Part shown: in pieces, positions 3,614 to 25,994 of the stretch
Position numbering within the stretch: position 1 is the first letter of the stretch
Layout: every line of letters starts with the position of its first letter
Assembly (NCBI RefSeq): GCF_019175365.1
Contig: NZ_CP059572.1
Location: 2,480,001-2,544,000, forward strand
DNA: 64,000 nucleotides
From: Actinomadura graeca
Lineage (GTDB): Bacteria; Actinomycetota; Actinomycetes; Streptosporangiales; Streptosporangiaceae
Direction of reading: 5' to 3'
The notes under the pieces: model-generated
The model's database searches: none
The model's input: only the letters and a program-made list of their open reading frames with translations
What the model was told of the DNA's origin: nothing
Position numbers and translations under genes: made by a program

Positions 3614-5230
3614 ATGCGGTTACCTTCGGCCCATATCGACACGTTCTGCCGAGACAACCTGCCGCCCGCCGGGCAGTGGCCCGAACTGCTCTTCGGCCTG
3701 CCGGAGCTGCGTTATCCGGAACGCCTGAACTGCGCGGAGGCCCTGCTGGACGCCGCCGTGGCGCGCCACGGGGCGGACCGTCCCTGCCTGCTGACCGGCT
3801 CGGAGACCTGGACGTACGGCGACCTGCTCCGGCGCGCCAACCAGATCGCGGGGGTGCTCGCCGAGGATCTCGGCCTGGTGCCGGGGAACCGGGTGCTGCT
3901 GCGCGGGCCGAACGGCCCCTGGCTGGTCGCGGCGTGGTTCGCCGTGCTGAAGGCCGGGGGCGTGGCGGTCACCACCATGCACCTGCTGCGCGCCGGTGAG
4001 ATCGCGGCGCTGGCCGCGCGGACCGAGCCGGACCTCGTCGTGTGCGACCACCGCTACACCGCCGACGTGGAGGCGGCCCTTCCCGGGGTGCCCGCCGTGG
4101 TCTACGGCGGCGGTTCCGGCGACGACCTGATCGGCCGCAGCGAGGCCAGGAGCCCGGACTTCGCCGCGGTCGCCACCGCCGCGGACGACGTGGCCCTGCT
4201 CGCACCGACCTCGGGGACCACCGGCATCCCCAAGATCACGGCGCATTTCCACCGCGACGTCCTGGCGATCAACGACACGTTCGGCCGGCACGTCCTCGCC
4301 GCGCGGCCGGACGACGTCTTCACCGGCACGCCGCCGCTGGGGTTCACCTTCGGCCTCGGCGGGCTCGTCGTCTTCCCGCTGAGCGCGGGGGCGGCGGTGG
4401 TGCTGATGGAGCGCGCCACTCCCGACGGCCTGGCGGACCTCATCGTGGACCACGACGTGACCACGGTGTTCACCGCGCCGACGATGTACCGGGCGCTGCT
4501 GGCGACCGGGAAGGGCCGGGCCCTGACGAGCCTGCGCACGTGCGTGTCCGCGGGGGAACACCTCCCGGCGACGGTCTGGCGGGACTTCCACGCCGAGACG
4601 GGACTGGAGATCGTGGACGGCATCGGCTGCACGGAGCTGCTGCACATCTTCATCTCGGCCGCCCCGGACCGGATCCGGCCGGGGTCCACGGGACGGGTCG
4701 TCCCGGGTTTCGAGGCCGCCGTCCTGGACGAGGAGGGGCGCCCGGTGCCGGACGGGGTGGCCGGCCGCCTCGCCGTGAAGGGCCCGACCGGATGCCGGTA
4801 CCTCGGCGACGACCGCCAGCGCGGCTACGTCGCCGGCGGCTGGAACATCACCGGGGACACCTATGTGCGCGACGCCGACGGCTATTTCTGGTATCAGGCC
4901 CGGAGCGACGACATGATCGTCTCCGCGGGCTACAAGATAGCCGGGCCGGAGGTCGAGCAGGCCCTCGTCAGGCATCCGGACGTGCTGGAGGCCGGCGTGG
5001 TGGGGGCGCCCGATCCGCTGCGGCAGATGATCGTGAAGGCGTACGTCGTGCTGCGGGACGGCGCGTCCCCCGGTCCCGAGAAGGCGGCCGAGCTCCAGGA
5101 CTTCGCCAAGCGGACGATCGCGCCGTACAAATATCCCCGCTCGATCGAGTTCGTCGATTCCCTTCCCCGGACGCTGACCGGGAAGGTGCAGCGTTATCTG
5201 CTGCGCGAATCCGCGGCCGGGCAGGCGTAG
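3614..5230 (+). CDS. 2-aminobenzoate (anthranilate)-CoA-ligase-like enzyme
   Basis: ANL-superfamily adenylate-forming enzyme of 538 residues. The N-terminus (SAHIDTFCRDNLPPAGQWPE) is the pattern I associate with 2-aminobenzoate-CoA ligases of the benzoate-CoA-ligase group. The ATP-binding loop is TSGTTGIPK (about residue 197), the substrate/A5 region reads DGIGCTELLHIF, and the C-terminal domain ends with LPRTLTGKVQRYLLR carrying the catalytic Lys. Expected reaction: anthranilate + ATP + CoA to anthraniloyl-CoA. The anthranilate synthase and the aminobenzoyl-CoA-type monooxygenase in the same cluster support that substrate. It is the only plus-strand gene of region B, and its 3' end overlaps the convergent hotdog gene by 37 bp. 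The ribosome site is weak (GGGA, 13 nt upstream). Confidence 0.8.
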   Translation: MRLPSAHIDTFCRDNLPPAGQWPELLFGLPELRYPERLNCAEALLDAAVARHGADRPCLLTGSETWTYGDLLRRANQIAGVLAEDLGLVPGNRVLLRGPNGPWLVAAWFAVLKAGGVAVTTMHLLRAGEIAALAARTEPDLVVCDHRYTADVEAALPGVPAVVYGGGSGDDLIGRSEARSPDFAAVATAADDVALLAPTSGTTGIPKITAHFHRDVLAINDTFGRHVLAARPDDVFTGTPPLGFTFGLGGLVVFPLSAGAAVVLMERATPDGLADLIVDHDVTTVFTAPTMYRALLATGKGRALTSLRTCVSAGEHLPATVWRDFHAETGLEIVDGIGCTELLHIFISAAPDRIRPGSTGRVVPGFEAAVLDEEGRPVPDGVAGRLAVKGPTGCRYLGDDRQRGYVAGGWNITGDTYVRDADGYFWYQARSDDMIVSAGYKIAGPEVEQALVRHPDVLEAGVVGAPDPLRQMIVKAYVVLRDGASPGPEKAAELQDFAKRTIAPYKYPRSIEFVDSLPRTLTGKVQRYLLRESAAGQA

Positions 5231-5643
5231 CCGCCTTCGGCCCTCCGCGCCGCGGCGGCACTGACCAGGGCGGTGCGGAGGTGGTCCGGCCACGGCGCCG
5301 GGCGGTCGTCTTCGTTCACGTGGACCACGGTGTGCCTTCCGGCGGCGCATGTCCGCCCTTCGCAGACGACCGTCCAGCCGAAGGTGACGCTGCAGTTCTT
5401 CACGCGTTCCACGTCGAGGCGCAGTTCGCATCGCTGCCCGAAGCGCTGCGGCCGGTGATAGGCGGCCTCCGCCGAGCGCCGGGGATAGGTGCCCGCCTCG
5501 CCGGGGTCCCAGCCGAGCGTCCGGAGGAAGGCGTGCTCGGCGGCCTCAGCCCAGCGGAACACGGCCGACCAGTGGACGCGCCCGCCCGCGTCGGTGTCCG
5601 CCCAGACGACCGGCCTGTCCTCGGCGTACGCGTGCTCAGCCAA
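5194..5643 (-). CDS. Hotdog-fold acyl thioesterase (4-hydroxybenzoyl-CoA-thioesterase type)
   Basis: 149 residues, one hotdog domain. Near the N-terminus WADTDAGGRVHWSAVFRWAE matches the family signature DxDxxGxVHxxxxxxWxE, with the catalytic Asp in place. It probably hydrolyses the thioester of an aryl-primed chain, or edits mis-primed ACP or CoA. The start is TTG at 5641-5643, overlapping the last codons of the anthranilate synthase gene, so it is the last gene of the minus-strand run and translationally coupled. Its tail overlaps the convergent ligase. Confidence 0.75.
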   Translation of the reverse strand: MAEHAYAEDRPVVWADTDAGGRVHWSAVFRWAEAAEHAFLRTLGWDPGEAGTYPRRSAEAAYHRPQRFGQRCELRLDVERVKNCSVTFGWTVVCEGRTCAAGRHTVVHVNEDDRPAPWPDHLRTALVSAAAARRAEGGYACPAADSRSR

Positions 5644-7855
5644 CGATCGCCTCCGCGCCGGACGCGGCCGCGCGCGGCCGCTCCCGGCAGAGGGCGAGCA
5701 CGTTCGCGATGACCCGGTGCCCGGCCCGGCCGGACGCGGTGAGGATCGACTCCGGGTGGAACTGCACCGCCCACCGGCCCGCCGCCGGATCCTCGATCGC
5801 CATCACCGCGCCGTCCGGGGCAGCCGCCGTCACGGTGAACCCGCCGCGCACCTCGCCCGGCGGCGCGTACAGGGAGTGGTAGCGCCCGGCGGTGAACTCC
5901 GGGCCGAGCCCGCCGAGCAGCGCGCCGCCGGACACCCGCACCGGCCCCGGCTTGCCGTGCACCGGCCGGGGCAGGACCGACAGCGTCCCGCCCGCGTGCT
6001 CCACCATCGCCTGGAGCCCCAGGCACACCCCGAACACCGGCAGCCGCCGCCGGTACACCTCGTCGAGCAGCGCGGCGCAGCCGAAGTCCGACGGACGGCC
6101 CGGACCCGGCGACAGCACCACCAGGTCGGGCGCGTACTCGTCCAGCAGCGCGGGCGGGAACCCGAACCGGAGCGTGGCGACGTCGGCCCCCTCCTGCCGG
6201 AGGTAGTCGCCCAGCATGTGGACGAACGAGTCCCGGTGGTCGACCAGCAGCACGCGCGCCGCCGCGTGGCCCGGCGGGACGCCCGATCTCCCCCGGCCGG
6301 CGGCGCGTCCGTAAGCCTGCCCGGCGCCGGCCCGTCCCGGGGGATGTGGGGGGTCGTCCCCCCACAAGAGACCGGCCCGGTCCTGCGAGGCCGCCTCCGC
6401 CATGGTCTCCAGCAGGGCGCGGGCCTTGATGTGGGTCTCCCGCTCCTCGGCCTCCGGCACCGAGTCGTACAGCAGCGTCGCGCCGGCCCGGACCGCGGCG
6501 ACGCCGCCGGTGATGTGGGTGGTCCGCAGCGTCAGGCCCGTGTTCAGGGACCCGTCGAACCCGATCCTGCCGACCGCGCCGCCGTACCAGCGCCGCGGCG
6601 TGTCCTCGTGGTCCTCGATGAACTGCGTCGCCCGCGCCTTGGGCGCGCCCGTCACGGTGACCGCCCACATGTGGGTGAGGAACGCGTCCAGGGCGTCGAA
6701 CTCCGGCCGCAGCCGCCCCTCGACGTGGTCCACGGTGTGGATGAGACGGCTGTACATCTCGATCTGCCGCCGCCCGATCACCCGCACCGAGCCCGGGACG
6801 CACACCCGCGCCTTGTCGTTGCGGTCCACGTCGGTGCACATGGTCAGCTCGGACTCCTCCTTCGCCGACCCGAGCAGCGCCGCGATGTTCGCCGCGTCCT
6901 CCAGCGGGCCCTCGCCGCGCTGGATCGTGCCCGCGATCGGGCAGGTCTCCACCCGGTCGCCGGTCACCCGCACGTACATCTCCGGTGAGGCGCCGACGAG
7001 GTACTCCCCCTCCCCCAGGTTGAACAGGAACTCGTAGGGGGCGGGGTTGCGCCGGCGCAGCAACTGGTAGAAGGCGGACGGCGCGTCGCACCTGCCGTGG
7101 AACACGTGGCTGGGCACCACCTCGAACAGGTCCCCCCGCGCGAACCGCTCCCGTGCCAGCTCGACGACCTTGGCGTACGTCCCGGGCCGCGGTTCCCCGC
7201 TTCGCGGGTGCGGCGGCGGCGCGTCCGACATGAGCGCCGGGCCGGTGTCCCGTCCCAGGCCGGCCGTGGAGGCGCCGTCCACCTCGAACTCGTAGGAGTA
7301 CCGGTGCGCCGTCTCCCGTTTGCGGTCCACCACCCAGATCTCGTCGGGCAGGTGGAGCACCAGGTCGCGTTGCGCCTCCGCCCGGTCGAGCCGCTGCCGC
7401 ACCGGCTCGAACTGGAACGCCAGGTCGTAGCCGAACGCCCCGTAGAGGCCGAGGTGCGGGTCGTCGGTCCCGAACTCCTTGACGATCTCCCGCAGGGCGC
7501 TGAACACCGTCGGGCGCCGGGTGCGCTCCTCCTCGGGGGCGGGCCGGCCGGGTTCCGGTATGACGACGGCGTGCCCGCCGGCCCGCCGTCCGGCCCGCCG
7601 CATCGCCGCGAGGACCACGGGGAGGATCAGGCGGCCGCGCTCGTTCAGGGCGCGGGCGGTGAGCCGCCGCCCGGTCGCGGTGATCTCGATGGGCGGGTCG
7701 ACGTAGGCGATGGCCCAGCGGCTGTACCGCCCCAGGTACTCCATGCCGGAGCTGAGCACACCGCCCCGCCGGGAGTCGACCATCCCGGCGATCCGCTCCA
7801 GCGCGGCCGGATCGAACGACGCCACCGTGCGCGTGATGTCCAGCGTGATGTCCAT
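5636..7855 (-). CDS. Fused anthranilate synthase (TrpE-TrpG)
   Basis: 739 residues, the length of the fused TrpEG type. Residues about 1-500 are the chorismate-binding subunit: PIAGTIQRG, TMCTDVDRNDKARVCVPGSV and TVTGAPKARATQ are its conserved motifs. After a short linker rich in Gly, Pro and Arg comes a class I glutamine amidotransferase with SPGPG, GVCLGLQAM (nucleophilic Cys) and FHPES (His and Glu). Both halves look intact. Expected reaction: chorismate + Gln to anthranilate + pyruvate + Glu. PhzE-type enzymes stop at ADIC and share this architecture, but the neighbouring anthranilate-CoA ligase favours anthranilate. The ATG at 7853-7855 shares one base with the ketoreductase stop. A longer same-frame reading to 8281 is only a shadow of the ketoreductase gene. 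Confidence 0.9.
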   Translation of the reverse strand: MDITLDITRTVASFDPAALERIAGMVDSRRGGVLSSGMEYLGRYSRWAIAYVDPPIEITATGRRLTARALNERGRLILPVVLAAMRRAGRRAGGHAVVIPEPGRPAPEEERTRRPTVFSALREIVKEFGTDDPHLGLYGAFGYDLAFQFEPVRQRLDRAEAQRDLVLHLPDEIWVVDRKRETAHRYSYEFEVDGASTAGLGRDTGPALMSDAPPPHPRSGEPRPGTYAKVVELARERFARGDLFEVVPSHVFHGRCDAPSAFYQLLRRRNPAPYEFLFNLGEGEYLVGASPEMYVRVTGDRVETCPIAGTIQRGEGPLEDAANIAALLGSAKEESELTMCTDVDRNDKARVCVPGSVRVIGRRQIEMYSRLIHTVDHVEGRLRPEFDALDAFLTHMWAVTVTGAPKARATQFIEDHEDTPRRWYGGAVGRIGFDGSLNTGLTLRTTHITGGVAAVRAGATLLYDSVPEAEERETHIKARALLETMAEAASQDRAGLLWGDDPPHPPGRAGAGQAYGRAAGRGRSGVPPGHAAARVLLVDHRDSFVHMLGDYLRQEGADVATLRFGFPPALLDEYAPDLVVLSPGPGRPSDFGCAALLDEVYRRRLPVFGVCLGLQAMVEHAGGTLSVLPRPVHGKPGPVRVSGGALLGGLGPEFTAGRYHSLYAPPGEVRGGFTVTAAAPDGAVMAIEDPAAGRWAVQFHPESILTASGRAGHRVIANVLALCRERPRAAASGAEAIVG

Positions 7856-8601
7856 CAGAGGGACAGACCTCCGTCGATCCCCAGGACCTGGCCCGTGATG
7901 TAGGCGGAACGGCAGGAGACGAGGAAGGACACGAGGTCGGCGACCTCGTCCGGCGTGCCGGGGCGGCGCAGCGCGATCCTCTTGAGCTGTTCCTTCCGCC
8001 GGGCGTCGCCGAGCCCGGCGGTCATGTCCGTCGTGATCATCCCGGGCGCGACGCAGTTGGCCCGGACACCGAACCGCCCGAGCTCCTGCGCGATCGACTT
8101 GGTGAACCCGATGATCCCGGCCTTGGACGCGGCGTAGTTCGCCTGCCCGGTGTTGCCGTGGACGCCCGCCACCGAGGAGATGGTGACGATGCTCCCGGCG
8201 TCGTGCCGCATGAGCGGCCGCGCCGCGGCGCGGCAGAGGTGGTAGGTGCCGTCCAGGTTCGTGCGGATCACCGCGTCCCACTCGTCGTCGGCCATCCGGG
8301 CCAGCGGCCGGTCGCGGACGATCCCGGCGTTGGCGACGACCGCCGCCAGGGGCCCGAGCTCGTCCTCGGCCTCGCAGACGAGCTTTCCGGCCTGGCCCGG
8401 GACGGAGACGTCGGTCCTCCGGGCGAGCACCCGGGCGCCCGCGCGGCGCGCGGCGGCCGCGGTCTCACCGGCCTCCTCCTCGCCGGACAGGTAGCAGAAC
8501 GCGACGTCGAATCCGTCGGCGGCCAGGCGGAGCACGGCGGCCCGCCCGATGCCCCGCGACCCGCCGGTGACGACCGCGACGGGCCGGTCCGCGCCCGTCA
8601 T
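7855..8601 (-). CDS. FabG-like 3-oxoacyl-ACP reductase
   Basis: Classical short-chain dehydrogenase of 248 residues. It has the NADP(H)-binding motif TGGSRGIG (12-19), NAG (91-93), catalytic Ser in the ISSVAG segment, and YAASK with Y156 and K160. It ends with the FabG-like IDGGLSL. Placed directly after an ACP gene (stop and start share one base) and before the anthranilate synthase, it most likely reduces the beta-keto group of the growing ACP-bound chain in region B. Confidence 0.88.
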   Translation of the reverse strand: MTGADRPVAVVTGGSRGIGRAAVLRLAADGFDVAFCYLSGEEEAGETAAAARRAGARVLARRTDVSVPGQAGKLVCEAEDELGPLAAVVANAGIVRDRPLARMADDEWDAVIRTNLDGTYHLCRAAARPLMRHDAGSIVTISSVAGVHGNTGQANYAASKAGIIGFTKSIAQELGRFGVRANCVAPGMITTDMTAGLGDARRKEQLKRIALRRPGTPDEVADLVSFLVSCRSAYITGQVLGIDGGLSL

Positions 8602-8858
8602 CAGGCCGTCCCGACCTTGGCGGAGACGAGCCGGTGGATGGCCGGCAGCGTGGTCAGCGACGTGATCTCCTCCTCGCTGATCTTGATCCGGTACCTCTTC
8701 TCCAGCTGGACGGCGATCTCCATCGCCGCGAGCGAGTCCACGTCGAGGTCCTCCGCCAGGTCGGCGTCGTCGGTCACCTCCTCGACCGGGAGCTCGACCT
8801 CCTCGGCGACGAGCGCGCGCAGGTCCTCGATGTCGACGGCCGTCTGGTCGGCTGGCAT
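8601..8858 (-). CDS. Acyl carrier protein
   Basis: 85 residues, acidic, four-helix ACP fold. The phosphopantetheine site is DVDSLAAM with Ser42. The gene is coupled to the ketoreductase (TGATG overlap at 8599-8603) and preceded by GAGGAG, which fixes the ATG at 8858. Probably the main carrier for chain extension by the discrete ketosynthases upstream; the second ACP of this cluster sits beside a ligase and may serve the starter. Confidence 0.9.
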   Translation of the reverse strand: MPADQTAVDIEDLRALVAEEVELPVEEVTDDADLAEDLDVDSLAAMEIAVQLEKRYRIKISEEEITSLTTLPAIHRLVSAKVGTA

Positions 8859-8873
8859 GACAGCTCCTCTGCT

Positions 8874-8929: not shown

Positions 8930-8935
8930 CGCGCT

Positions 8936-9733
8936 TCAGACGACGAGCGCCTCTCCGCCGTCGACCCCGATGACGTTGCCGGTCAGCCAGGACGAGTCGG
9001 TGGACGACAGGGTGACGATCGCGTCGGCCACGTCCTCGGCGAGCGTCAGTCGGCCGCCCGGATTGACCTCCCGGCAGTGGGCGATCACCTTCTCGCTGCC
9101 CGGGATCTTCCGCAGCGCGGGGGTGATCGTCGTCCCGGCCCGGATCGCGTTCACCGCCACGCCCCACGGCGCGAGCTCCACCGCCAGCTGGCGGACATGG
9201 GCCTCCAGCACCGCCTTCGCCGCCGACACGGGCGCGTAGCCCGGCAGCACCCGGGTCCCGCCGACGCTGGTCATGGCGAAGACCTTCGCGCCCCGTGGCA
9301 GCAGCAATGCCTTCAGCAGGTCCTGGGTCCAGTACGCGAGGCTGTGGCCCATGACCTCGACCGTCATCGTCAGCTGCTTCGCCGTCACCCCGGGACCCCC
9401 GCCGGGCGCCGGGAGCAGGGACGTCAGCGTCCCGTAGGCGACCGAGTGCAGGACGACCCGGGGCCCGGTGCCGGACGTGAGATCGCCGATGACGGGGATG
9501 AGTTCCTCCCGCGACTGTTTCGCCGCGACATTGCGGTTGAAGAAATGCGCCTCGACCCCGGTCTCGCCCAGGGTCTTGGCGTACTGTTCCGCCTGCTGCT
9601 GCCCTTCGGCGAGGTCGAAGTGCACGCCGATGATGTTGCACCCCGCGTCGGCCAGCGCCCGCGCGGTCTCCTTGCCGATTCCGCTGGAGACGCCGAATAT
9701 CAGCGCCCAGGCGCCCTCAAGGGAAACGAACAT
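8936..9733 (-). CDS. FabI-like enoyl-ACP reductase / short-chain dehydrogenase
   Basis: 265 residues. The C-terminal half follows enoyl-ACP reductases: GYAPVSAAKA gives Y166 and K173 in Y-x6-K spacing, then VNAIRAGTTITPALRKIPG and LTGNVIGVDGG. The N-terminal nucleotide motif (FGVSSGIGK) is closer to ordinary SDRs, and the first active-site Tyr of FabI is Val157 (TSVGGTRVLPGY). It may reduce enoyl groups or act as a specialised ketoreductase. GGAGGAG before the ATG at 9733 chooses this start over the longer frame to 9775. It overlaps the upstream gene by 17 bp, so it belongs to the same operon. Confidence 0.72.
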   Translation of the reverse strand: MFVSLEGAWALIFGVSSGIGKETARALADAGCNIIGVHFDLAEGQQQAEQYAKTLGETGVEAHFFNRNVAAKQSREELIPVIGDLTSGTGPRVVLHSVAYGTLTSLLPAPGGGPGVTAKQLTMTVEVMGHSLAYWTQDLLKALLLPRGAKVFAMTSVGGTRVLPGYAPVSAAKAVLEAHVRQLAVELAPWGVAVNAIRAGTTITPALRKIPGSEKVIAHCREVNPGGRLTLAEDVADAIVTLSSTDSSWLTGNVIGVDGGEALVV

Positions 9734-10769
9734 CGGTCTCCTCCCTGTTCTCCTCCGCCGGGACGGCCGCCGCACGGCGTGGCGCGACGGTCAGCTCGGC
9801 GAGTGCGATCGTGCCCTCGGCGGACGCGGCCAGCACCGCGCTCCGGGTGGGGGCCGTGTGCTCCTGCGCGAGCAGGCCCATGACGCGCTGCAGCGGGACC
9901 AGGCAGCCCGCCTGCGGTGTGGCCGGGACGGCGACGACGTCGCACTCGCCGGTGAGGCGGTCCAGCCAGCGGGCGACGGCCGTCCCGACGGCGGAGTCGT
10001 CCAGCACGGCGTGGATCCGGCCGGGCGGGTCGTCGCCCACCAGGGGGCCGAGGACGGTGGCGGCGCCCGCAGCCGCGGCGGCGGGGTCCAAGAAGGCGCT
10101 GCGCGCCATGCACGTGCCGTAGCGCGCGTCCCCTTCCGTGGCGGGTTCGCAGTGGAGCACGGCGGCGCCCGCCTGCGATCCGGGCCCGGACGGCCGGGCG
10201 GGCGGCCCGGCGGCCGATTGGCCGGGCGACAGCGTCTCCTCGGCCGCCCCCACCAGGACGGCCCGGGCCCGGCCGGCGGCGACGGCGCGGGCCGCGATCT
10301 GGATCGCCTCGATCCCGGCGGTCACCGGGGAGTTCACGGTGAGGTTGAAGCCGGTGATGTCGTGTTCCAGGGAGAGCCGGCTGGCGAACGAGCTCATCGC
10401 GATGAACGGGCTGGTGGACGGCGGCAGCTCCGCGGCGCCCCGCCGCATGATCGTGTGGTCCAGTTCCTCCAGCAGGGCGGCGCCGGCGTGGTTGACGGCC
10501 ACCACCGCCGCCCGGTGGTCGCGTCCGGTCTCCGCGAAGCGGCCCCCGGAGTCGGCGACGGCCAGCCTCGACGCGGCGAGCAGATATTTGCAGGCGGCGG
10601 GCAGCCGCCGGTAGCCGCGTCCGGGGAGGGCGGTCTCCGTCCGGAACCAGCCGGGGGCCGCCTCCGCGGGCGGCGCCAGCGCGTCCCCGGGGCCGGAGAT
10701 CCCCGGCGCGGCGATGCCCATGCCCGTGACGGCCAGCTCACCGGTGCCCACCGTGACCACCTCCGGCAT
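9717..10769 (-). CDS. Inactive ketosynthase homologue (chain-length-factor-like), Cys to Val
   Basis: 350 residues with the thiolase/KS fold. Counting back from the conserved AVLVG strand, the nucleophilic Cys position is Val149 (TVNSPVTAG), and the His motifs of active KSs are missing from the shortened C-terminal half. Canonical chain length factors carry Gln at the Cys position, so this is not a standard CLF. Its start overlaps the end of an intact KS gene by 32 bp, as expected for KS-alpha/KS-beta partners. It probably heterodimerises with that KS and shapes the pocket; an independent function cannot be excluded. Confidence 0.7.
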   Translation of the reverse strand: MPEVVTVGTGELAVTGMGIAAPGISGPGDALAPPAEAAPGWFRTETALPGRGYRRLPAACKYLLAASRLAVADSGGRFAETGRDHRAAVVAVNHAGAALLEELDHTIMRRGAAELPPSTSPFIAMSSFASRLSLEHDITGFNLTVNSPVTAGIEAIQIAARAVAAGRARAVLVGAAEETLSPGQSAAGPPARPSGPGSQAGAAVLHCEPATEGDARYGTCMARSAFLDPAAAAAGAATVLGPLVGDDPPGRIHAVLDDSAVGTAVARWLDRLTGECDVVAVPATPQAGCLVPLQRVMGLLAQEHTAPTRSAVLAASAEGTIALAELTVAPRRAAAVPAEENREETDVRFP

Positions 10770-11955
10770 CCCCGGTCAAAGGCTTGACGACGAACGAGGT
10801 GTTGTTGCCGCCGAACGCATAGGTGTTGACCAGGACCGCGGGCGCGTCCAGCGGCACGGGACGGTCCTGCGGGAGCCACACGTCGCACTCCGGATCCTGA
10901 TCGATCGGGACGTTCGCCGGGGTCCTCCCGTGGTGCACCATCAGCGTCGCGGTGAGGCAGCCGAACGCGCCCGCCGCGCCCGTCGTGTGGCCGATCATCG
11001 CCTTGAGCGAGAAGAGCGGCAGCCCGCGTGTCCGCGCGCCGAACATCCGGTGCAGGGCCCGGCTCTCGACCACGTCGTTGAGCGGCGTCCCCGTCCCGTG
11101 CGGGATGACGCAGCGCACGTCGGACGCGCTCAGCCCCGCGTCGGCCAGCGCCTCGGTCATCGCGCGGACGATCTGGTCGCCCGACGGGTCCGGGGCCGTC
11201 GGATGGTGCGCGTCGCAGCTCCAGGCCGCGCCCGCCAGCTCGGCGTACGCGCGGGCGCCGCGCCGCCGGGCGTGGTCGGCGGCTTCGAGGACGAGCATGG
11301 CCGAGCCGTCGCCGAACATCGTCCCGGCCCGGTCGCGGTCGAAGGGCCGGCAGCGCACGGGGTCCGCGGCGCCCAGCCGGTTGAAGGCGCCGATCCCGGC
11401 CCGCGTGACGCCCTCGGCGCCGCCGACCAGGACGGCGGGCGCCTCACCCGCGCGGATCATGTCCAGGGCGATGGTGAGGGCGAAGCCGCTGGCCGAGCAG
11501 GCGTTCCCCACGCTGGTCACCTCGGCGCGCGAGCCGATCGCCGCGCCCACGACGGCGGCCGTGGGGGTCAGCGTCGTCCACGCCGTCCGTCCGGCGCTGC
11601 GCTGGATCTCCTGCGCGTCGGCGTTGCCCAGCTCGACCCCGAGGACGACGGGGACGGCGGCGCACGACCCGTGCCCCAGCCCGGCGTCGGCGAGCGCCTG
11701 CCCGGCCGCGGCGACCGCCAGGCGCGAGCTGCTCCCCAGTTCCACCCCGGCGTGGGAGGACGGCTCGGACGGCACGCCGGCCCGGTCGACGAGGTACATC
11801 CTCGTGGTCGGCATGTTCAGGTCCGGCAGCGGGACCTCGGCCGGTTCCCCGCCGCCCGCGAGCAGGCCGTCCCAGTGCGCGGCGGCGCCGCCGCCCAGGC
11901 AGGAGATCGCGCCGAGGCCGGTGATCACGACGCGGCGGCGGCCGGACGCGCTCAT
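10738..11955 (-). CDS. Beta-ketoacyl synthase (type II, active)
   Basis: 405 residues, full-length FabF/KS-alpha type. The catalytic triad is present: Cys153 (VGNACSASG), His286 (PHGTGTP) and His323 with Lys318 (LKAMIGHTTG); NTYAFGGNN near the end closes the active site. It performs decarboxylative condensation on ACP-bound chains. It is coupled by a 4-bp overlap to the upstream Cys-less KS homologue and by a 32-bp overlap to the downstream one, so either could be its partner. ATG at 11955. Confidence 0.9.
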   Translation of the reverse strand: MSASGRRRVVITGLGAISCLGGGAAAHWDGLLAGGGEPAEVPLPDLNMPTTRMYLVDRAGVPSEPSSHAGVELGSSSRLAVAAAGQALADAGLGHGSCAAVPVVLGVELGNADAQEIQRSAGRTAWTTLTPTAAVVGAAIGSRAEVTSVGNACSASGFALTIALDMIRAGEAPAVLVGGAEGVTRAGIGAFNRLGAADPVRCRPFDRDRAGTMFGDGSAMLVLEAADHARRRGARAYAELAGAAWSCDAHHPTAPDPSGDQIVRAMTEALADAGLSASDVRCVIPHGTGTPLNDVVESRALHRMFGARTRGLPLFSLKAMIGHTTGAAGAFGCLTATLMVHHGRTPANVPIDQDPECDVWLPQDRPVPLDAPAVLVNTYAFGGNNTSFVVKPLTGDAGGGHGGHR

Positions 11956-14023: not shown

Positions 14024-15588
14024 GGCGTGCCCTCCAGGTCGCCGGAGGGGCCGCCCGACGGGGGACGGAGGCGGAAACGCGCGAGCTTGCCGTTGGCGGT
14101 GACGGGGAGCCTCTCGATGATCTCCACGCGGGACGGCCGCTTGTACGGCGCCAGGCCGGCGAGCAGCGCGGCGCGCACCTCCGCCCGTGCCTCGTCCGGA
14201 CGGTCCGGGTCGCGCGGCACGACGTACAGCGTCGCCTGTTCGAGCCCGGTGGGATCCGCGCCGCCGACGACCGCGCAGTCGGCGACCGCGGCGATCCCGC
14301 GGACCACGTGCTCGATCTCGGCCGGCGCGATCTTGTATCCGCCGAGCAGGAGCATGTCGTCGGCGCGGCCGACATGGCGGATGTCGCCGCCGGGCGCGCG
14401 GAACGCGACGTCGCCGGTGTAGACGCCGCCGTCGGCGAAGGCGCGGGCGGTGTCCTCCGGCCGGTCGAGGTAGCCGAGCGCGGCCGACGCCGCGGCGATG
14501 TGCAGCCGGCCGGGAATCTCGTCGCCGACCGGCCGCCCGGCGTCGTCGCGGATGGTCACGGTCACCCCGGGGACGGGGGTGCCGATCGATCCGGGGCCGT
14601 GCGGCCCGTCCCGTCCCACGTCCGCCGCGACGACGGTGTGCAGGACCTCGGTCGCGCCGAAGCCGTTGATGAGCGGCACGCCGAACGTCGCGGTGACACG
14701 GGCCGCCAGGTCGGCCGGCAGGTGCTCCCCGGTGGACACGGCCAGCCGCAGCGAGGTCGTGTCGACCGCCTTGCCCTGCTCGGCGAGCCTGAGCAGGCTG
14801 GCGTAGAGCCGGGGCACGGAGAACAGGACGGTCGGCCGGTACTCGGCCAGTGCCGCCGCCACGCTGTAGGGCTCCGCCTGCCCGTCGAGCAGGACCGAGC
14901 AGGCGCCCGCCGCGTACGGGAACAGCAGCGAGTTCCCGAACCCGTAGCCGAACGACAGCTTCGCCGTCGACAGCACGACGTCGTCGGGGGTGAGCGCCAG
15001 CAGGCTGCCGACGCCGTCCAGGACCGCGCGGACGGCCCGCAGGGAATGCCGCACGCCCCTCGGCCTGCCGGTGCTGCCGGACGTGTACTGGACCAGCAGC
15101 TCATCGGTCTCCCCGAAGACGGCCGGTGGAGGCGCGGACCGCACCGCGCGGCCGGGGCCGAGCCCGGTGAGCAGCCCGGCGCGCCCCTCCGCGCGTCTCG
15201 TCTCGTCGATCTCGGTCAGCTCCGCCCGCAGCGCCGCACGGCGCTGCGGGGCGATGTTCAGCTCCGCGAACTCCGCCTTGGAGTCCTCCAGGACGAAGGC
15301 CAGCTCCGCGGGCCGGAGCATCGGATGCAGCAGCACCGGCACGCACCCGTGCCACCACAGGGCGAGGACGGCGGTGACCGCCGCGACGCAGTCGTCGGAG
15401 ACGACGGCCGCGCGGCAGCCGGGCCGCACCCCCGCGGCCCTCAGGCGCCCGGCGTACTCCGTCACTGCGTCCCGCATGTCCGCGTAGGTGACCTCGCCCA
15501 CCCGGCGGTCCACGCCGCAGCGCCGGTCCCCGGCATGCCCGAGCAGCAGTAACCCGACCGGGTTCGCGATCCCCGTGGCAGGGCTCAT
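14020..15588 (-). CDS. Adenylate-forming aryl/acyl ligase (benzoate-CoA-ligase group)
   Basis: 522 residues, ANL superfamily. ATP loop YTSGSTGRPRG, A5-like region NGFGATEVLHTV, TGD motif (VYTGDVAFR), hinge GRADDMLLLGGYKI and C-terminal TANGKLARFR with the catalytic Lys. It resembles the aryl-activating ligase on the plus strand more than fatty acyl ligases. Its gene overlaps the ACP gene just upstream by 4 bp, so it may load an aryl or short acyl group on that ACP instead of CoA, as ligases do in aryl polyene clusters. Substrate unknown. Confidence 0.82.
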   Translation of the reverse strand: MSPATGIANPVGLLLLGHAGDRRCGVDRRVGEVTYADMRDAVTEYAGRLRAAGVRPGCRAAVVSDDCVAAVTAVLALWWHGCVPVLLHPMLRPAELAFVLEDSKAEFAELNIAPQRRAALRAELTEIDETRRAEGRAGLLTGLGPGRAVRSAPPPAVFGETDELLVQYTSGSTGRPRGVRHSLRAVRAVLDGVGSLLALTPDDVVLSTAKLSFGYGFGNSLLFPYAAGACSVLLDGQAEPYSVAAALAEYRPTVLFSVPRLYASLLRLAEQGKAVDTTSLRLAVSTGEHLPADLAARVTATFGVPLINGFGATEVLHTVVAADVGRDGPHGPGSIGTPVPGVTVTIRDDAGRPVGDEIPGRLHIAAASAALGYLDRPEDTARAFADGGVYTGDVAFRAPGGDIRHVGRADDMLLLGGYKIAPAEIEHVVRGIAAVADCAVVGGADPTGLEQATLYVVPRDPDRPDEARAEVRAALLAGLAPYKRPSRVEIIERLPVTANGKLARFRLRPPSGGPSGDLEGTP

Positions 15589-15830
15589 GACACCCGGGGC
15601 CTGTCGCGGAGCATCCGCATCGCGTCGCCGACGCTGTCGATCTCCGCGGCCTCCGCGGGGCCGAGCTCGGCGCCGGAGGCACGCTCCAACCGCACGATGA
15701 ACTCCGCCTTGTGCAGCGAGTCCATTTCCAGGTCCACGTAGAACGATGTGTCGATCCCGATGTCGGAGACATCGACGTCCAGGATGGACGCCACGATCTC
15801 CTGCACATCCCGGTCGGTCATCATCGGCAT
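15585..15830 (-). CDS. Acyl carrier protein (starter ACP candidate)
   Basis: 81 residues with the phosphopantetheine motif LEMDSLHKAEF (Ser38). GGAG six bases before the ATG at 15830 selects this start over an upstream in-frame ATG at 15881. Translation is coupled to the ligase that follows (ATGA overlap), which points to a ligase-ACP pair that activates and holds a starter or extender acid. Confidence 0.88.
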   Translation of the reverse strand: MPMMTDRDVQEIVASILDVDVSDIGIDTSFYVDLEMDSLHKAEFIVRLERASGAELGPAEAAEIDSVGDAMRMLRDRPRVS

Positions 15831-15903: not shown

Positions 15904-16383
15904 TCATTTCCTGACCTTCCTTATCGCCTCGGTGACGAGCGACTCGCTCGTCACCTCTCCGGCCTGTGTCAGCCGGACGCGCACATCGGCGGAGCGCTCG
16001 TCCATCGATGCGAGTTCGGCTTCGGCGCGCACGTCCCCGGGACGCGTCGCCGTCAGGTAGGCGACGTTCAGCCGGGTCGTGGCGAACACCATGTCGTCCT
16101 CAAGGAGACCGAACATCACGAACCCGGCGGCCTGGTCGTGGATGCCGGCGACATGGCCGCCGAAGACCACACCCGGTTCCACGCAGAAACCGGAGGGGAT
16201 GTGGAAGTCGATCGCGACGAACCCCGAACTCCACTCCATCGCGACGACGTGGAGTGAAAGGCGCTCGACGTACTCCGGAACCGGTGTGGCGCCTGCGGCT
16301 ATCTCCACGAGCATCTTCTGCCGCATCGTCAGCGCGTCTGACGGCGGGAATCCGTCCACGTCCGTTCGCACCTTCCCTGTCAT
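15904..16383 (-). CDS. PaaI-like hotdog protein
   Basis: 159 residues with one hotdog domain. The segment GVVFGGHVAGIHDQAAGFVMF corresponds to the HGG...D helix region of PaaI-type thioesterases, but the usual His/Asn before GG is Phe, so catalysis is uncertain. It could be an acyl-ACP thioesterase or fill the missing dehydratase role; there is no FabZ/FabA His-Pro motif. ATG at 16383 overlaps the MFS gene stop (4 bp), and a 73-bp gap separates it from the ACP gene downstream. Confidence 0.65.
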   Translation of the reverse strand: MTGKVRTDVDGFPPSDALTMRQKMLVEIAAGATPVPEYVERLSLHVVAMEWSSGFVAIDFHIPSGFCVEPGVVFGGHVAGIHDQAAGFVMFGLLEDDMVFATTRLNVAYLTATRPGDVRAEAELASMDERSADVRVRLTQAGEVTSESLVTEAIRKVRK

Positions 16384-17825
16384 GAGGCCGGCCCACGGCG
16401 CGCGACGAGCCAGACGAGCCCGGTGGCCAGCAGGAACGCCGTCACCACCACGAGGAGCCCGAGCGCCATGTCCGTCCGCAGCGCCGGATATCCCAGGGTC
16501 GTCAGATCGCCGTGGAACCCGCGGAAGAACGCCAGCCCGATCACGGCGACGCCCAGCGACGAGCCGATCTGCTGCGCTGTCGAGAGCAGCCCCGCGACCG
16601 CTCCGGAATCGTCGTCCCGCACTCTGGCCAGCACGAAGTTCAGCAACGGCCCGAGGACCATTCCCAGGCCGAGTCCGGTGACCAGCATCGCCGGTGTCAT
16701 CAGCGGCCCGAGATGCCGTCCCGAGCCGCTCCCCTCGATCGTCGCGATCATGAGGACGCTTCCGGCGGCGCTGATGACGCACCCGGCGAGAATGGCGGGG
16801 GGCGCGTCGAGGCGCGCCACGATACGCGCCGATGAAAGGGACGTGACCGTGCTTCCCACCGCGTAGGGCGCCATCGCGGCGGCCGTCGCGAGCGCGCCGT
16901 ACCCGAGGCCGTACTGGAGGGTGAGGGAATAGTAGAGGAAGAAGGGCACGACCCCGGAGAAGTACACCAGGTAAAGGGCCAGGCCCAGCCGGAAGACCGG
17001 ATCGGCCCACAATCCCGGCCGCAGCAAAGGGGACCTCCCCCGCCGTTCGAGCGCCGCCTCAAGCCAGAAGAACGCGGCCAACAGCACGGGCGCGCACAGG
17101 AGCAGCAGCCAGCCCCATAGCGGCCAGCCGCGATCACGTCCGACGGTGAGCGGCACCAGCAGCGCGACCAGCAGCAGGACGACGGTGAGCGAGCCCGCGT
17201 AGTCCAGGCGGAGGCGCGTCCCCTTGTGCGGCGGCACCATGCGGGGCGCCAGCGCGATCAGGACGACGCCGACCGGAATGTTGATCAGGAAGATCGGGCG
17301 CCATCCCGTGCCGGCGAGGTCCGCGGCGATGATCAGCCCCGCGATGACCGGGCCCGCGATGGTGGCGCAGCTCACGACCGCCCCCAGCAGCGCGAACGCA
17401 CGGCCCCGCCGTTCCGCGGCCACCGCGATGTGCAGTGTCGCGATGACCTGCGGGTACAGCACGGACGCCGAGAGGCCCTGCCAGACCCGGCCGAGGATAA
17501 GCGCGATCGGGCTCTGCGCCAGGCCGCAGGCGAGGCTCGCCAGGGTGAAGGACACCGCGCCGATGACGAACATCCGGCGCCTGCCGAACAGGTCGCCGAG
17601 CCGTCCGCCGGTGATGAGCGTCACCGCGTAGGCGACCACGTAGCCCGCGACCACCAGCTGCACATCCGGGACGGTGGCGCCGATGTCCCGCTGGATGCTC
17701 GGGATGGCGACGTTCACGATCGAGGTGTCGGCGAGGAGCATGAACGCCGCGCCGAGCACGAGCGCCGCCGCCCTCCTCTCCGCCGCGAGGAGACGCGGGG
17801 ACGCGGGCGCCGCCGGGCCGCTCAC
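16380..17825 (-). CDS. MFS drug/metabolite exporter (DHA2-like)
   Basis: 481 residues with roughly 14 predicted membrane helices. The intracellular loop between helices 2 and 3 reads GRLGDLFGRRRMF, the MFS signature. The layout matches EmrB/QacA-type proton antiporters. In a biosynthetic operon its job is most likely product export and self-protection. The GTG start at 17825 overlaps the stop of the upstream ligase gene (GTGA). Confidence 0.85.
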   Translation of the reverse strand: MSGPAAPASPRLLAAERRAAALVLGAAFMLLADTSIVNVAIPSIQRDIGATVPDVQLVVAGYVVAYAVTLITGGRLGDLFGRRRMFVIGAVSFTLASLACGLAQSPIALILGRVWQGLSASVLYPQVIATLHIAVAAERRGRAFALLGAVVSCATIAGPVIAGLIIAADLAGTGWRPIFLINIPVGVVLIALAPRMVPPHKGTRLRLDYAGSLTVVLLLVALLVPLTVGRDRGWPLWGWLLLLCAPVLLAAFFWLEAALERRGRSPLLRPGLWADPVFRLGLALYLVYFSGVVPFFLYYSLTLQYGLGYGALATAAAMAPYAVGSTVTSLSSARIVARLDAPPAILAGCVISAAGSVLMIATIEGSGSGRHLGPLMTPAMLVTGLGLGMVLGPLLNFVLARVRDDDSGAVAGLLSTAQQIGSSLGVAVIGLAFFRGFHGDLTTLGYPALRTDMALGLLVVVTAFLLATGLVWLVARRGPAS

Positions 17826-19357
17826 CCGAGCGCCGCGCGTGACGGGAGCCGGTTCCGGCGGACCTTCATCGTGCCCGTGAGCGGGAACTCCTCCCACGGC
17901 CGGTGGTCGACCGCGGTGTCCTCCGGCAGCCCCGCCGCCCGGCGGGCGCGCCGCCACCGCTCCTCCTCGACCGGCGTGCCGCCGGCCGTGGCCGTCACCG
18001 CCGTGACCGTCCCCTCCACCGCGATGATCACGACCTCGGCCAGCTCCGGCAGCTCGTCGAGCAGGACGTCCTCGGCGCGGAGGGTGCTGGGCACGCCGGG
18101 GACCCGGTCCACCTGCCGGTCGTGGAGCTCCACATGCCCGTCCGGGCGGAGCACGCCGACGTCGCCCATGGGCCACCACGTGTCGCGGCCGGGCAGCGGC
18201 GCACGGCCGACGATCGACTCGGCACGGGCGGGGGTGCGCACCTCGATGTTCCCGGGCGTGCCGTCCGGCAGCGCCGACCCGTCGTCGTCCACGACGCGGA
18301 GCTCGGTCATGCCGGGGAACACCCCGCCGACGTCGCGGGAGCTCAGCCCCGCCCCCCGGACGTCGGACCGCGTGAGCATCAGCACGGTGACCGGGCCGGT
18401 CTCCGACTGCCCGTAGGCCTGGATGAACGCCGGGTCCGGATGGTCCGATGCCTCCAGGAGCGTCCGCAGCGTCCGCGGATGGATCGCGTCGAAGCTGCTG
18501 ATGAACCGCTCGACCGGGGCGAACGGGTTCGGCGTGTTGTGCGCGAGCGCCTCCCAGCGCAGGAACATGTTCGGATGGGCCTCCAGAGCCTGCGGCCGGT
18601 ACCGCAGGAGCGTCTCGCACACCCGGGCCGGGCCGGGAGAGGTGATGCCGAGGAACGGCATCCCCGTGTTGAGCACCGTGAGGAGCCCCGAAGACATCCG
18701 GACATGCACGAAGGACAGGCATTTCGCGCTGATCCCCGCATGGTCGAGCGACCGCACGACGCCTATCTGGGACGCCACGTGGGCGTACAGCGAATCGACC
18801 GTGTGGACGACGAGCTTGGGTTTCCCGGTGGTGCCGGACGAGTGCGTGATGAGGGTCGGGTCCGTGCCGTGATGGCGGGTGACCCGGTGGGGTGCCGTCT
18901 CGCCGAGCTCCACCGCCCCGTCCAGCCCGGCTCCGGGCGTGAGCGTGAGGAGGCGCGGGACGAGCGCGCCCAGCTGTTCCCGCCAGGGACGCAGGACCTC
19001 CGCGCCGACGGCGTCGGTCAGCAGATGGGGCCGCCGGAGATCCCTGAGGCAGTCCAGGAGATCGGCCGGATCCATCGCCGCCGACAGCAGCGCGGGCAGC
19101 GCGCCGATGCGGACGGCGGCGCACTGGAGCGCCTGGATGTCGAGGTGATTGGCCTTGACCAGGGCGACCACCTCGCCCGGACGCACCCCGGCGGCCCACA
19201 GCCGGTCGGCGTAGTCCGCGACCACCGCCGCGAAGCCCTCCACGGTGTCCGGGTCGCGGCAGGCGGAGGCCCAGGGCGCGTCCGCGCACAGCGTGGTCCC
19301 GCCCTGGTGCTCGGCGGCGCTTTCCGGCAGTAGGCCGAGGTCGGCGATGGGGGGCAC
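17822..19357 (-). CDS. Adenylate-forming ligase (third ANL enzyme of the cluster)
   Basis: About 511 residues. ATP loop THSSGTTGKPKLV, a QAYGQSETG A5 motif, a shortened TGD region (PMGDVGVL) and a C-terminal LTGTMKVRRNRL with the likely catalytic Lys. It differs clearly from the two benzoate-CoA-ligase-like proteins and may activate an alkyl or amino acid substrate. A GTG at 19384 overlaps the upstream stop, but a near-perfect Shine-Dalgarno (AAGGAGGA) lies just before the GTG at 19357, so I place the start there. It could load the ACP or release the product as an amide. Confidence 0.75.
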   Translation of the reverse strand: MPPIADLGLLPESAAEHQGGTTLCADAPWASACRDPDTVEGFAAVVADYADRLWAAGVRPGEVVALVKANHLDIQALQCAAVRIGALPALLSAAMDPADLLDCLRDLRRPHLLTDAVGAEVLRPWREQLGALVPRLLTLTPGAGLDGAVELGETAPHRVTRHHGTDPTLITHSSGTTGKPKLVVHTVDSLYAHVASQIGVVRSLDHAGISAKCLSFVHVRMSSGLLTVLNTGMPFLGITSPGPARVCETLLRYRPQALEAHPNMFLRWEALAHNTPNPFAPVERFISSFDAIHPRTLRTLLEASDHPDPAFIQAYGQSETGPVTVLMLTRSDVRGAGLSSRDVGGVFPGMTELRVVDDDGSALPDGTPGNIEVRTPARAESIVGRAPLPGRDTWWPMGDVGVLRPDGHVELHDRQVDRVPGVPSTLRAEDVLLDELPELAEVVIIAVEGTVTAVTATAGGTPVEEERWRRARRAAGLPEDTAVDHRPWEEFPLTGTMKVRRNRLPSRAALG

Positions 19358-19380
19358 GTCTCCTCCTTCGAAAAGCCTGA

Positions 19381-21465
19381 TCACTCTCCGCCGGGCCGGG
19401 GGTCCGGCGTCCCGCGCGGCGGACGGCGCGGCGGGCCCTCCGCGGGCCGGTCAACCACGCACAGGTCCGCGCGCCCGGCCAGGACGATCGTGTCGACGTC
19501 GGCTTCGGAGATCGAGCCCGCCGCGATCACGGCGAACCCGCCGGCGCGTCCGGCCTGGTTGCGGATCCGGTCCGCGTGCGCGTCCCGCCCGTCGGGCGTC
19601 CCGCCGGAGACGTGCACGCCGGCCGCGCCGTGCGCCGCGAACGCGTTCGCGGCCTCGGCGACGGCGCCGTCCGGAAACCATTGCGCCGGTGAGAGGTGCA
19701 CGCTGACCGGACGCTCACCCGGCCACACCTCCCGGATCGCGTCGAGCACCCCAAGCGGCCTGCGGAGGCGGTCCAGCAGGCCGCTTGAGGTGCCGCCGTC
19801 ACGGCATCCGCCGGACGGGGACGGCGCCTGGGACGGTGGCGGGGGGCATAGGCCGTCGCAGGCGCAGTCCAGCTCCAGCAGGTCGAACCCGGCGGCGGCG
19901 GCGCGCCGGGCCGCGGCGGCGTACTCGCGCCGCAGCTCGTCCGGGGATCCGGCGGAGCCGCCGGTCCCGTGATGGCCGAGCCGGACGCCGATCTTCGCCG
20001 CCGAGTGCGCGTGGACGAAGCCCACGACCCGCCGCCACCCGTCCGCCTGCCGCTCGGTGCGCAGCCCGGCGCCGCCGGACGCGGCCGCGGTCAACACCAG
20101 CCCGGCCCCGCCCAGCGCCGCCCCGCCGACGGACACCAGATGCAGGTCGCCCGGCACGCCCTCGGGGGCCCGGCCCGGGACATCGGCCCAGATCACGACG
20201 CGGTTGGCCAGTGCCAGGCCGCCGAGCGTGTACGGCTGGAGGCCCGGCGGCCCCGCCCGGCCGTCAGCGCCTTCGCCGGCGCTGTTGGCGGCTCTGTCGG
20301 CGGCGCTGTCGGCGGCGAACCACCGCTCCGCCTGCGCGACGAAGCCCGGGTCGCGGCGGCGTAACCCGGCGTAGGAGACCCGGCGGCTGCGGGTCAGGAT
20401 GTTCACCGCGAACTGCTGCGGGTCCTGGTGGGTGTACCGGTCGATGTCCTCGAACCAGGCGCGGCTGCTGTCCGCGGCGCGCTGGGCGGCGGCGACAACC
20501 GGGCGCCGCTCGGCGTCGTACGCGGCGAGCGCCGCCTCCGCGTCCGGCTGGTCCCGAAGTTTCTGCGCCAGGCATAACGCGTCGTCCATCGCCAGCTTCG
20601 TGCCCGAGCCGATGGAGAAGTGCGCCGTGTGCGCCGCGTCGCCGATCAGCACGACGTTCCGATGCCGCCAGCTCTCGCACCGCACCGTGGGAAAGCGCAG
20701 CCAGCGCGAGTTGTTCCCGGCGAGCCGGTGGCCGTCCAGCAGTTCTTTGCACAGCTCGGCGATCATCCCGATGGACCGCTCGTCGCTCTGCCCCGGCGCG
20801 AGCCGCGAAGGCGCCGCGTCGGCGAACCCGGCCGCGCGCCAGGCGTCCTCGGACAACTCCACGATCAGGGTGCTGCTCCGAGGGGAATCGGGGTAGGCGT
20901 GCACTTGGACGGCCCCGCCCGGCGTGTCCACGATGTAGAACCGGAACGCGTCGAGCACGAGGTCGGTGCCCAGCCAGATGTACCGGCACCTGCCGTCCCG
21001 CACCCGCGGCCGGAACGTCCCGGCGTACCGCGCCCGGACCAGGGAGTTCGCCCCGTCGGCGGCCACGACGACGTCATGGTCGGCGGCGAGGGCGTCCACA
21101 TCGGTGATCTCGTCGCCGAACCGCACCGCGACGCCGAGCCGGGCACAGCGCCCGCGCAGGACCTTGAGCAGCCCGGCTCGGCTCAGCGCGGCGAACCCGT
21201 TACCGCCGGCCCTGAAGACGGTGCCGCGAAAACGCACATCGATGTCGTCCCACCGGGCGAGCATAGGCCGCAATTCGGAGAGGACGCGCGCATCGGCGCG
21301 CTCGATATCGCCGAGCGTCTGATCGGACAGCACCACGCCGAATCCGAACGTCTCATCGGGAGCATTCCGTTCCCAGACGGTGATTTCATGCCCGGGATCG
21401 AACCGGCGGGCCATCATGCCGAAGTACAGCCCCCCTGCCCCGCCACCGATCACAGCGATCCGCAC
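19381..21465 (-). CDS. Flavin monooxygenase fused to degenerate OYE-like domain (aminobenzoyl-CoA monooxygenase/reductase family)
   Basis: 694 residues. Residues 1-385 are a PHBH-type FAD monooxygenase: GGGAGG (7-12) binds ADP, VLIGDAAHTAHFSIGSG (272-288) the flavin ribityl. Residues about 405-694 resemble an old-yellow-enzyme barrel. This order is that of 2-aminobenzoyl-CoA monooxygenase/reductase and salicylyl-CoA 5-hydroxylase, usually about 760-780 residues. RLGHHG is kept, but the HCAHGYLL-type active-site segment reads ELDCACDGLC (531-540), followed by a Pro/Ser-rich insert, so both His are gone. I infer hydroxylation of anthraniloyl-CoA without ring reduction. GTG start with AGGAGG five bases upstream; first gene of the minus-strand run. 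Confidence 0.78.
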   Translation of the reverse strand: MRIAVIGGGAGGLYFGMMARRFDPGHEITVWERNAPDETFGFGVVLSDQTLGDIERADARVLSELRPMLARWDDIDVRFRGTVFRAGGNGFAALSRAGLLKVLRGRCARLGVAVRFGDEITDVDALAADHDVVVAADGANSLVRARYAGTFRPRVRDGRCRYIWLGTDLVLDAFRFYIVDTPGGAVQVHAYPDSPRSSTLIVELSEDAWRAAGFADAAPSRLAPGQSDERSIGMIAELCKELLDGHRLAGNNSRWLRFPTVRCESWRHRNVVLIGDAAHTAHFSIGSGTKLAMDDALCLAQKLRDQPDAEAALAAYDAERRPVVAAAQRAADSSRAWFEDIDRYTHQDPQQFAVNILTRSRRVSYAGLRRRDPGFVAQAERWFAADSAADRAANSAGEGADGRAGPPGLQPYTLGGLALANRVVIWADVPGRAPEGVPGDLHLVSVGGAALGGAGLVLTAAASGGAGLRTERQADGWRRVVGFVHAHSAAKIGVRLGHHGTGGSAGSPDELRREYAAAARRAAAAGFDLLELDCACDGLCPPPPSQAPSPSGGCRDGGTSSGLLDRLRRPLGVLDAIREVWPGERPVSVHLSPAQWFPDGAVAEAANAFAAHGAAGVHVSGGTPDGRDAHADRIRNQAGRAGGFAVIAAGSISEADVDTIVLAGRADLCVVDRPAEGPPRRPPRGTPDPRPGGE

Positions 21466-25981: not shown

Positions 25982-25994
25982 GACCCCTCCTCGT

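Follow-up and report, generated by a model that had tools for sequence, protein, structure and literature searches.

The window analysed here, a 64,000-nucleotide stretch of the Actinomadura graeca genome, contains a cluster of 17 genes that we predict, with a probability of roughly 0.68, to make a small molecule by means of a highly reducing (HR) type II polyketide synthase (PKS) primed with 5-hydroxyanthranilate. The prediction is based on enzyme families, catalytic residues and the conservation of the gene set. Genes were called from codon-position GC and start inspection, and families were assigned by Pfam and NCBIfam scans (Table 1). Fifteen of the genes (g2 to g16) run from 21465 to 5194 on the minus strand, with 11 of their 14 junctions overlapping and the remaining gaps measuring 62, 73 and 77 nt at the chosen starts; g1 converges on them from the plus strand, and a gene for a B12-binding radical S-adenosylmethionine (SAM) protein completes the set. 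Since the run lies on one strand with mostly overlapping junctions, and the same gene set recurs in eight other named genomes, the cluster is not a product of chance.

The initial annotation had delimited the cluster at 3614 to 21465, a range that holds except that it omits the radical-SAM gene, which is associated with the cluster in all eight relatives. Every enzyme it named was recovered: a fused anthranilate synthase (TrpEG, above the cut-off of both models); a 2-aminobenzoate-CoA-ligase-like enzyme (g1, of the benzoate/anthranilate-CoA-ligase family); a flavin enzyme of the aminobenzoyl-CoA monooxygenase family (g16, a flavoprotein with FAD and old yellow enzyme (OYE) halves); two active ketosynthases (KSs; g10 and g8, with Cys-His-His kept) and two Cys-less homologues (g9 and g7); and, all matched by family scans, two acyl carrier proteins (ACPs), a ketoreductase (KR), a FabI-like reductase, hotdog proteins and an exporter. 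Its count of ligases was wrong, as there are three AMP ligases, g11 and g15 being the two that it missed.

Table 1. Genes of the cluster, with window positions, strand and basis of assignment
Gene and product	Position	Strand	Basis
B12-binding radical-SAM protein, 572 aa, probable tailoring enzyme	1594..3312	-	Pfam B12-binding and Radical_SAM; TIGR04190 387 bits, cut-off 500; CxxxCxxC kept
g1, putative anthranilate-CoA ligase, 538 aa	3614..5230	+	TIGR02262 366.5 bits, cut-off 375
g2, 4HBT_2 hotdog protein, possible aryl-CoA thioesterase	5194..5643	-	Pfam PF13279
g3, fused anthranilate synthase TrpEG, 739 aa	5636..7855	-	NF010081 1022 bits, cut-off 645; TIGR01815 921.5 bits, cut-off 739
g4, FabG-type KR	7855..8601	-	Family scans; YxxxK kept
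g5, ACP, probable extender ACP	8601..8858	-	Pfam PP-binding; DSL motif; role by analogy with AvaA2/CmaA2
g6, FabL/FabI-type enoyl reductase (ER), Y-x6-K	8936..9733	-	NF005975 (FabL) best, 139.8 bits, cut-off 328
g7, short chain-length-factor-like KS partner with Val in place of the active Cys	9717..10769	-	Pfam ketoacyl-synt N domain only
g8, KS of pair B, Cys-His-His kept	10738..11955	-	Family scans
g9, short chain-length-factor-like KS partner with Ala in place of the active Cys	11952..12815	-	Family scans
g10, KS of pair A, Cys140-His268-His305	12812..14023	-	Family scans
g11, AMP ligase placed like AvaA1, probable aminobenzoyl-ACP ligase/transferase	14020..15588	-	TIGR02262 292 bits, cut-off 375
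g12, ACP, probable starter ACP	15585..15830	-	Pfam PP-binding; DSL motif; role by analogy with AvaA3/CmaA3
g13, PaaI-like hotdog protein, probable releasing/editing thioesterase, start uncertain	15904..16383	-	Pfam 4HBT; PDB 2pim E 2.7e-6
g14, DHA2-family MFS exporter	16380..17759	-	Pfam MFS_1; TIGR00711 179 bits, cut-off 230
g15, divergent AMP ligase	17822..19384	-	Pfam AMP-binding
g16, putative anthraniloyl-CoA hydroxylase (FAD and OYE), FAD half intact, ene-reductase half decayed	19381..21465	-	NF006101 693.7 bits, cut-off 1078

Judged by its sequence, g16 is a descendant of the catabolic 2-aminobenzoyl-CoA monooxygenase/reductase (ACMR); its score to model NF006101 is below the cut-off. 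It has the FAD hydroxylase half of that enzyme, but the OYE half of its type is shortened and lacks the first catalytic His. The best 120 of 7985 matches to g16 were divided into a cluster type (at least 60% identity, 663-744 aa, n = 31) and an ACMR type (778-916 aa, n = 89), the former being defined by protein, with the cluster itself seen in the window and eight loci only. At the first position of the OYE motif HCAHGYL, all 89 ACMR-type proteins have the catalytic His and all 31 cluster-type proteins have Asp, as do all eight relative loci, and the residues that follow are ragged or partly deleted in the cluster type. All 31 cluster-type proteins retain the GD motif of the hydroxylase half, and 29 have GxGxxG in their first 60 residues (the window's own record begins after this motif). 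Cluster-type proteins share an identity of 0.76 in the FAD half and 0.65 at the end of the OYE half, compared with 0.85 and 0.89 for the ACMR type (every third sequence). An ACMR-like match (E <= 1e-120, 49-57% identical) occurs in 26 other genomes of the 197 in the class; 24 of these matches run from residue 1 or 2 to residue 505, and the other two end at residues 504 and 405. With a catalytic residue of its reductase half gone, g16 should stop at 5-hydroxyanthraniloyl-CoA, which a full ACMR is reported to yield when NADH is limiting (PMC3534580). The (oxidised) anthraniloyl-CoA proposed in the initial annotation is thereby retained and narrowed to the 5-hydroxy compound.

The ligase g1 probably supplies the substrate of g16, and its pocket suggests an anthranilate-type rather than a benzoate-type enzyme. 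In AuaEII, residues F220, T221, F222, A293, G318, C319, H324 and I325 touch anthranilate and T221 binds the amino group (PMC11253843). All eight, including Thr221, are found in g1 and in its Actinomadura livida orthologue; the two benzoate ligases of solved structure share five of them and differ in having A, Y and S at 221, 222 and 319 (by eye), and among eight non-cluster g1 homologues from six other genomes, seven contacts are kept in six, six in one and two in one. The second ligase, g11, is probably an aminobenzoyl-ACP ligase/transferase, a substrate suggested by its position, one tree and five pocket positions. Its pocket, F-G-Y..G..H, has Gly and Tyr at PqsA G210 and Y211, keeps the glycine and histidine and replaces Ala with Thr (apart from G210, the pairings with PqsA residues were made in this analysis), and our first tree placed it in one group with the KS-adjacent ligases of 12 related loci.

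A supply of anthranilate would be provided by g3, which sits inside the overlapping minus-strand run of the PKS transcription unit and is not the only anthranilate synthase of the organism. For the ANTHRANILATE synthase, a scan of the A. graeca genome gave six Chorismate_bind matches, including a 25-bit fragment, and two of the six are fused TrpEG proteins. The second fused copy (L085, C1:8918440; 1097 bits to NF010081) has neighbour genes that look alike in A. livida (L095, L096; by eye). No Chorismate_bind match lies beside the trpC/trpB locus (C1:7805000-7822000, L098), where trpC was found by search and its neighbours, including trpB, were named by eye. From these neighbourhoods we take the second TrpEG to be the tryptophan enzyme and g3 to be a dedicated copy. 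Anthranilate priming of a discrete, nonaromatic type II PKS, as put forward in the initial annotation, is still the best reading of the sequence, with the ligase pocket and the second TrpEG in its favor.

Catalytic residues of the PKS core are conserved throughout. Across the nine clusters, Cys-His-His is present in 18 of 18 KSs and the active Cys is gone from 18 of 18 partners, its place being taken by Ala, Thr or Val in g9 and by Val, Leu or Phe in g7. The YxxxK of the KR and the Y-x6-K of g6 are kept in eight of eight copies each. The latter spacing marks FabI-type enoyl-ACP reductases, and 14 of the 17 PDB sequences matching g6 at E <= 1e-15 are named as such. A discrete KR and ACPs, as in HR type II PKSs, are present, and the cyclase or aromatase of aromatic type II PKSs had no match among the 17 genes scanned. 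The system is best read as a likely HR type II PKS close to ava, cma and spi; the initial annotation was right that it is not a normal aromatic type II PKS, but the kind itself is a known one. A cispentacin-type carbocycle was considered and rejected, as the AmcF model gave 180 and 224 bits (cut-off 325) and g9 scored 21.7 bits to the model of AmcG (cut-off 80), the cyclization factor of the cispentacin/coronafacate KS-CYF type; the AmcF-AmcG (KS-CYF) pair of cispentacin resembles those of the window in having a KS with a shortened Cys-less partner (PMC10698177).

A profile search of genome contigs with an alignment of KS g10 (A1, 18 sequences) returned 254 relatives, of which the best 80 were kept. 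Eight of these carry the same cluster (L003-L010), in the closest named genomes: Streptomyces typhae, Streptomyces aureocirculatus, Streptomyces xiaopingdaonensis, Streptomyces beigongshangae, Streptomyces alboflavus, Streptomyces flavofungini, A. livida and Streptantibioticus rubrisoli. Genes g7 to g16 and the radical-SAM gene are common to all eight loci, g4 to g6 occur in seven (L005 ends at a contig edge), and g2 is found in four of the seven that are not cut short; protein identities to the window range from 64% (an ACP) to 89% (the radical-SAM protein). The next 14 loci are of two sorts, with both KS pairs in all four of L011-L014 and one pair in L015-L024, and a distant TrpE-like protein accompanies eight of the ten single-pair loci. 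The other 58 loci (L025-L082; KS identity 26-35%) were used only as ligase rows in the trees. Among the two-pair relatives, L011 of Embleya hyalina has, besides the PKS core, a TrpEG of its own (52% to g3) and one of the AvaA6-like ligases, and is perhaps an anthranilate-primed relative forming N-N bonds. The single-pair locus L020 has asparagine-synthase-like, dhbA-type dehydrogenase and TrpE-like genes and L015 has a DAHP-synthase-like gene below cut-off, contents that suggest a hydroxyanthranilate- or hydroxybenzoate-type starter.

The radical-SAM gene adjoins g16 in all eight relatives (84-89% identity), and in the window it lies at the opposite end from g16, beyond g1. Residues C232, C236 and C239 are invariant in its alignment (A3). 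A match at E <= 1e-120 occurs in one of the 197 class genomes, that of A. graeca. The notion of a family confined to this cluster was rejected, as a protein search returned 5100 relatives, the best 120 of which come mostly from jgi, ena or lgn sources and, apart from the window's own record, show 82-89% identity. Many of the jgi names read CloN6/CouN6, which we take to be a C-methylating enzyme; this hints at C-methylation and demonstrates nothing.

We predict that TrpEG (g3) would convert chorismate into anthranilate, which g1 would activate as anthraniloyl-CoA and g16 would hydroxylate at C5 to give 5-hydroxyanthraniloyl-CoA, with the ring expected to stay aromatic because the ene-reductase half of g16 looks dead. 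The starter would then be brought to ACP g12 by g11, either by transfer from CoA, as for AuaEII/AuaE in aurachin, or after hydrolysis of the CoA ester by thioesterase g2 and re-activation by g11. The pairs g10/g9 and g8/g7 would add malonyl units from ACP g5 and KR g4 would reduce them, with dehydration probably performed by the fatty-acid-synthase (FAS) dehydratase, as proposed for cma, and some double bonds saturated by ER g6. Release of the acid by g13, export by g14 and tailoring by the radical-SAM enzyme and g15 would complete the pathway. The expected product class is a 2-amino-5-hydroxyphenyl alkenoic or partly saturated acid, or a ring-closed form of it. A bolder proposal, which we hold tentatively and at a little under even odds, is that a catabolic flavoenzyme became a starter-maker by keeping its hydroxylation and losing its dearomatising reduction, that it feeds a new HR type II PKS branch with two pairs of KS and chain-length factor (CLF) and its own ER, and that the B12 radical-SAM enzyme then modifies the product, the result being a partly saturated polyketide, capped by a para-aminophenol, that belongs to a class so far undescribed.

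Several observations weigh against this pathway. The best PDB match of g1 is the anthranilate-CoA ligase 4wv3 (284.3 bits), with the benzoate-CoA ligase 2v7b just behind (281.8 bits), so that bit scores hardly separate the benzoate enzyme from AuaEII as the nearer relative of g1; only indirectly, through the pocket, is the aminated substrate of the initial annotation favored over a non-amino benzoate. A second tree with outgroups, weakly supported, splits the g11-like ligases, and g15 shows none of the anthranilate or PqsA pocket patterns, no role having been fitted to it. No dedicated dehydratase was matched in the Pfam and NCBIfam scans of the cluster genes, which contain only two 4HBT hotdogs, and the ava/cma gene table of PMC10777205 lists no ER. 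In whole genomes, a cluster-type TrpEG occurs in only three of the eight relatives, being absent from five that have the rest, and a g1 orthologue in one, being absent from seven; in six of these seven an FTF-type ligase lies on a different contig, and in the seventh (G008) the match is split in two. Clusters without TrpEG or g1 would have to draw anthranilate and anthraniloyl-CoA from other sources, and this patchy distribution indicates that the two genes are an optional add-on at the supply end of the cluster. The distribution of TrpEG also favors a different aryl acid as starter, such as salicylate or benzoate, with TrpEG accessory, as do the near-equal score of g1 to benzoate-CoA ligase and the name of g16's best model, salicylyl-CoA 5-hydroxylase. 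We consider this very unlikely given that TrpEG lies inside the PKS transcription unit here, that g1 keeps the amino-binding Thr221, and that no salicylate or benzoate supply gene was matched among the 17 cluster genes.

An aurachin- or quinolone-like route is unlikely. Here one or two extensions of anthraniloyl-ACP would be followed by ring closure onto its amine to give a 4-quinolone, and the KR and ER would act on a chain that is separate or made later. The resemblance of g1 to AuaEII fits this route, and aurachin, also in a Streptomyces cluster, is a known case of a type II PKS primed with anthranilate (PMC10295502). The KR and FabI-type ER accompany the core in all seven relative loci not cut short, the second KS pair does so in all eight, and no prenyltransferase or P450 was matched among the 17 genes scanned. 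There is still less to recommend a diazo or N-N product, with g15 as a diverged diazotase acting on the para-aminophenol from g16. Diazotase substrates often have an ortho or para hydroxyl (PMC11705231), as 5-hydroxyanthranilate would, AvaA6-like-group ligases lie beside related PKS cores in eight of the 14 loci L011-L024 (that of L020, the sole one scanned, scored 356 bits; cut-off 975), and our first tree, which had no outgroups, joined g15 with this group (98/92) on long branches. However, the AvaA6 model gives g15 only 68 bits, under the same cut-off, and a generic ligase model gives it 104 bits, and its A5 motif (YGQSETGP; YGQTETGP in eight orthologues) is unlike the GLGSSELGW of two aligned AvaA6-like rows. 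The join disappeared in the second tree, a loss that is not conclusive because the outgroups were few (nine, two of them fragments) and support was weak. No nitrosuccinate lyase exceeded the cut-off in the two of five Lyase_1 proteins of the A. graeca genome that were scanned, a weak argument given that 72 of 134 published ava-like clusters also lack those genes (PMC10777205). Joining of 5-hydroxyanthranilate, as an ester or amide, to an aliphatic chain built by the PKS has a precedent in the lauryl and isolauryl 5-hydroxyanthranilates of a Streptomyces (PMC6102551); we regard it as highly doubtful, since no acyltransferase, ester synthase or carboxyl reductase was matched among the 17 genes scanned and the KS has g11 and a starter-type ACP for neighbours, an arrangement like that of aryl-primed systems.

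The preferred reading, a 5-hydroxyanthranilate-primed HR type II PKS, places the cluster near known systems without equating it to any of them. The ava and cma clusters have an acyl-ACP ligase, two ACPs, a KS and a CLF, with a FabG-like KR in ava and a FAS dehydratase proposed for cma (PMC10777205). The window shares with ava, cma and spi a predicted aminobenzoate starter, the acyl-ACP ligase, two ACPs and KS-CLF as discrete proteins, and with ava the FabG-like KR (PMC10777205; spi, PMC11705231). It differs in pairing anthranilate with TrpEG where the known systems use a 3-amino-4-hydroxybenzoate (3,4-AHBA) or 3-aminophenyl starter, and it adds a predicted hydroxylation at the CoA level, a second KS-CLF pair, a dedicated ER and the radical-SAM gene. 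The avaH/avaI-type genes that make the 3,4-AHBA starter of ava and cma had no match among the 17 genes scanned, TrpEG being present instead, and the ATP-dependent diazotase of the ava/cma/spi subgroup (AvaA6/CmaA6/SpiA7) was not recognised in the cluster, g15 being the protein scored. Aurachin biosynthesis (AuaEII, AuaE, AuaB, AuaC and AuaD) likewise has an anthranilate-CoA ligase, a second adenylating enzyme, an ACP and KS-CLF (PMC10295502), but the window has reducing enzymes (KR and ER), two KS-CLF pairs and no prenyltransferase match, and its hydroxylation probably precedes loading. No description recognised as this cluster was found in the open-access literature searched, most matches having been judged from listings.

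Elsewhere in the window, positions 23607-39400 contain genes of the contractile-injection type, encoding baseplate J, gp25, the tail tube protein gp19, a sheath protein and an AAA ATPase, bordered by a NADase-translocation-domain protein at 21809-23062. A second possible biosynthetic locus at 51162-60425 comprises a ferredoxin, an AMP ligase and a class III aminotransferase, together with an ACP-like protein (54209-54460, by eye) and an AurF-like N-oxygenase (54471-55571, 39 bits). Not far beyond the window, adenylation-domain frames of 8,849 and 11,847 codons at C1:2575000-2646000 of the same genome represent a large nonribosomal peptide synthetase.

The compound should be accessible, as the cluster is present in the A. 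graeca genome and in eight other named genomes, one copy of which ends at a contig edge. If the prediction is true, anthranilate would join the starters of aryl-primed HR type II PKSs, and g16 would be a clear case of a bifunctional degradative enzyme turned biosynthetic through the decay of one of its halves.

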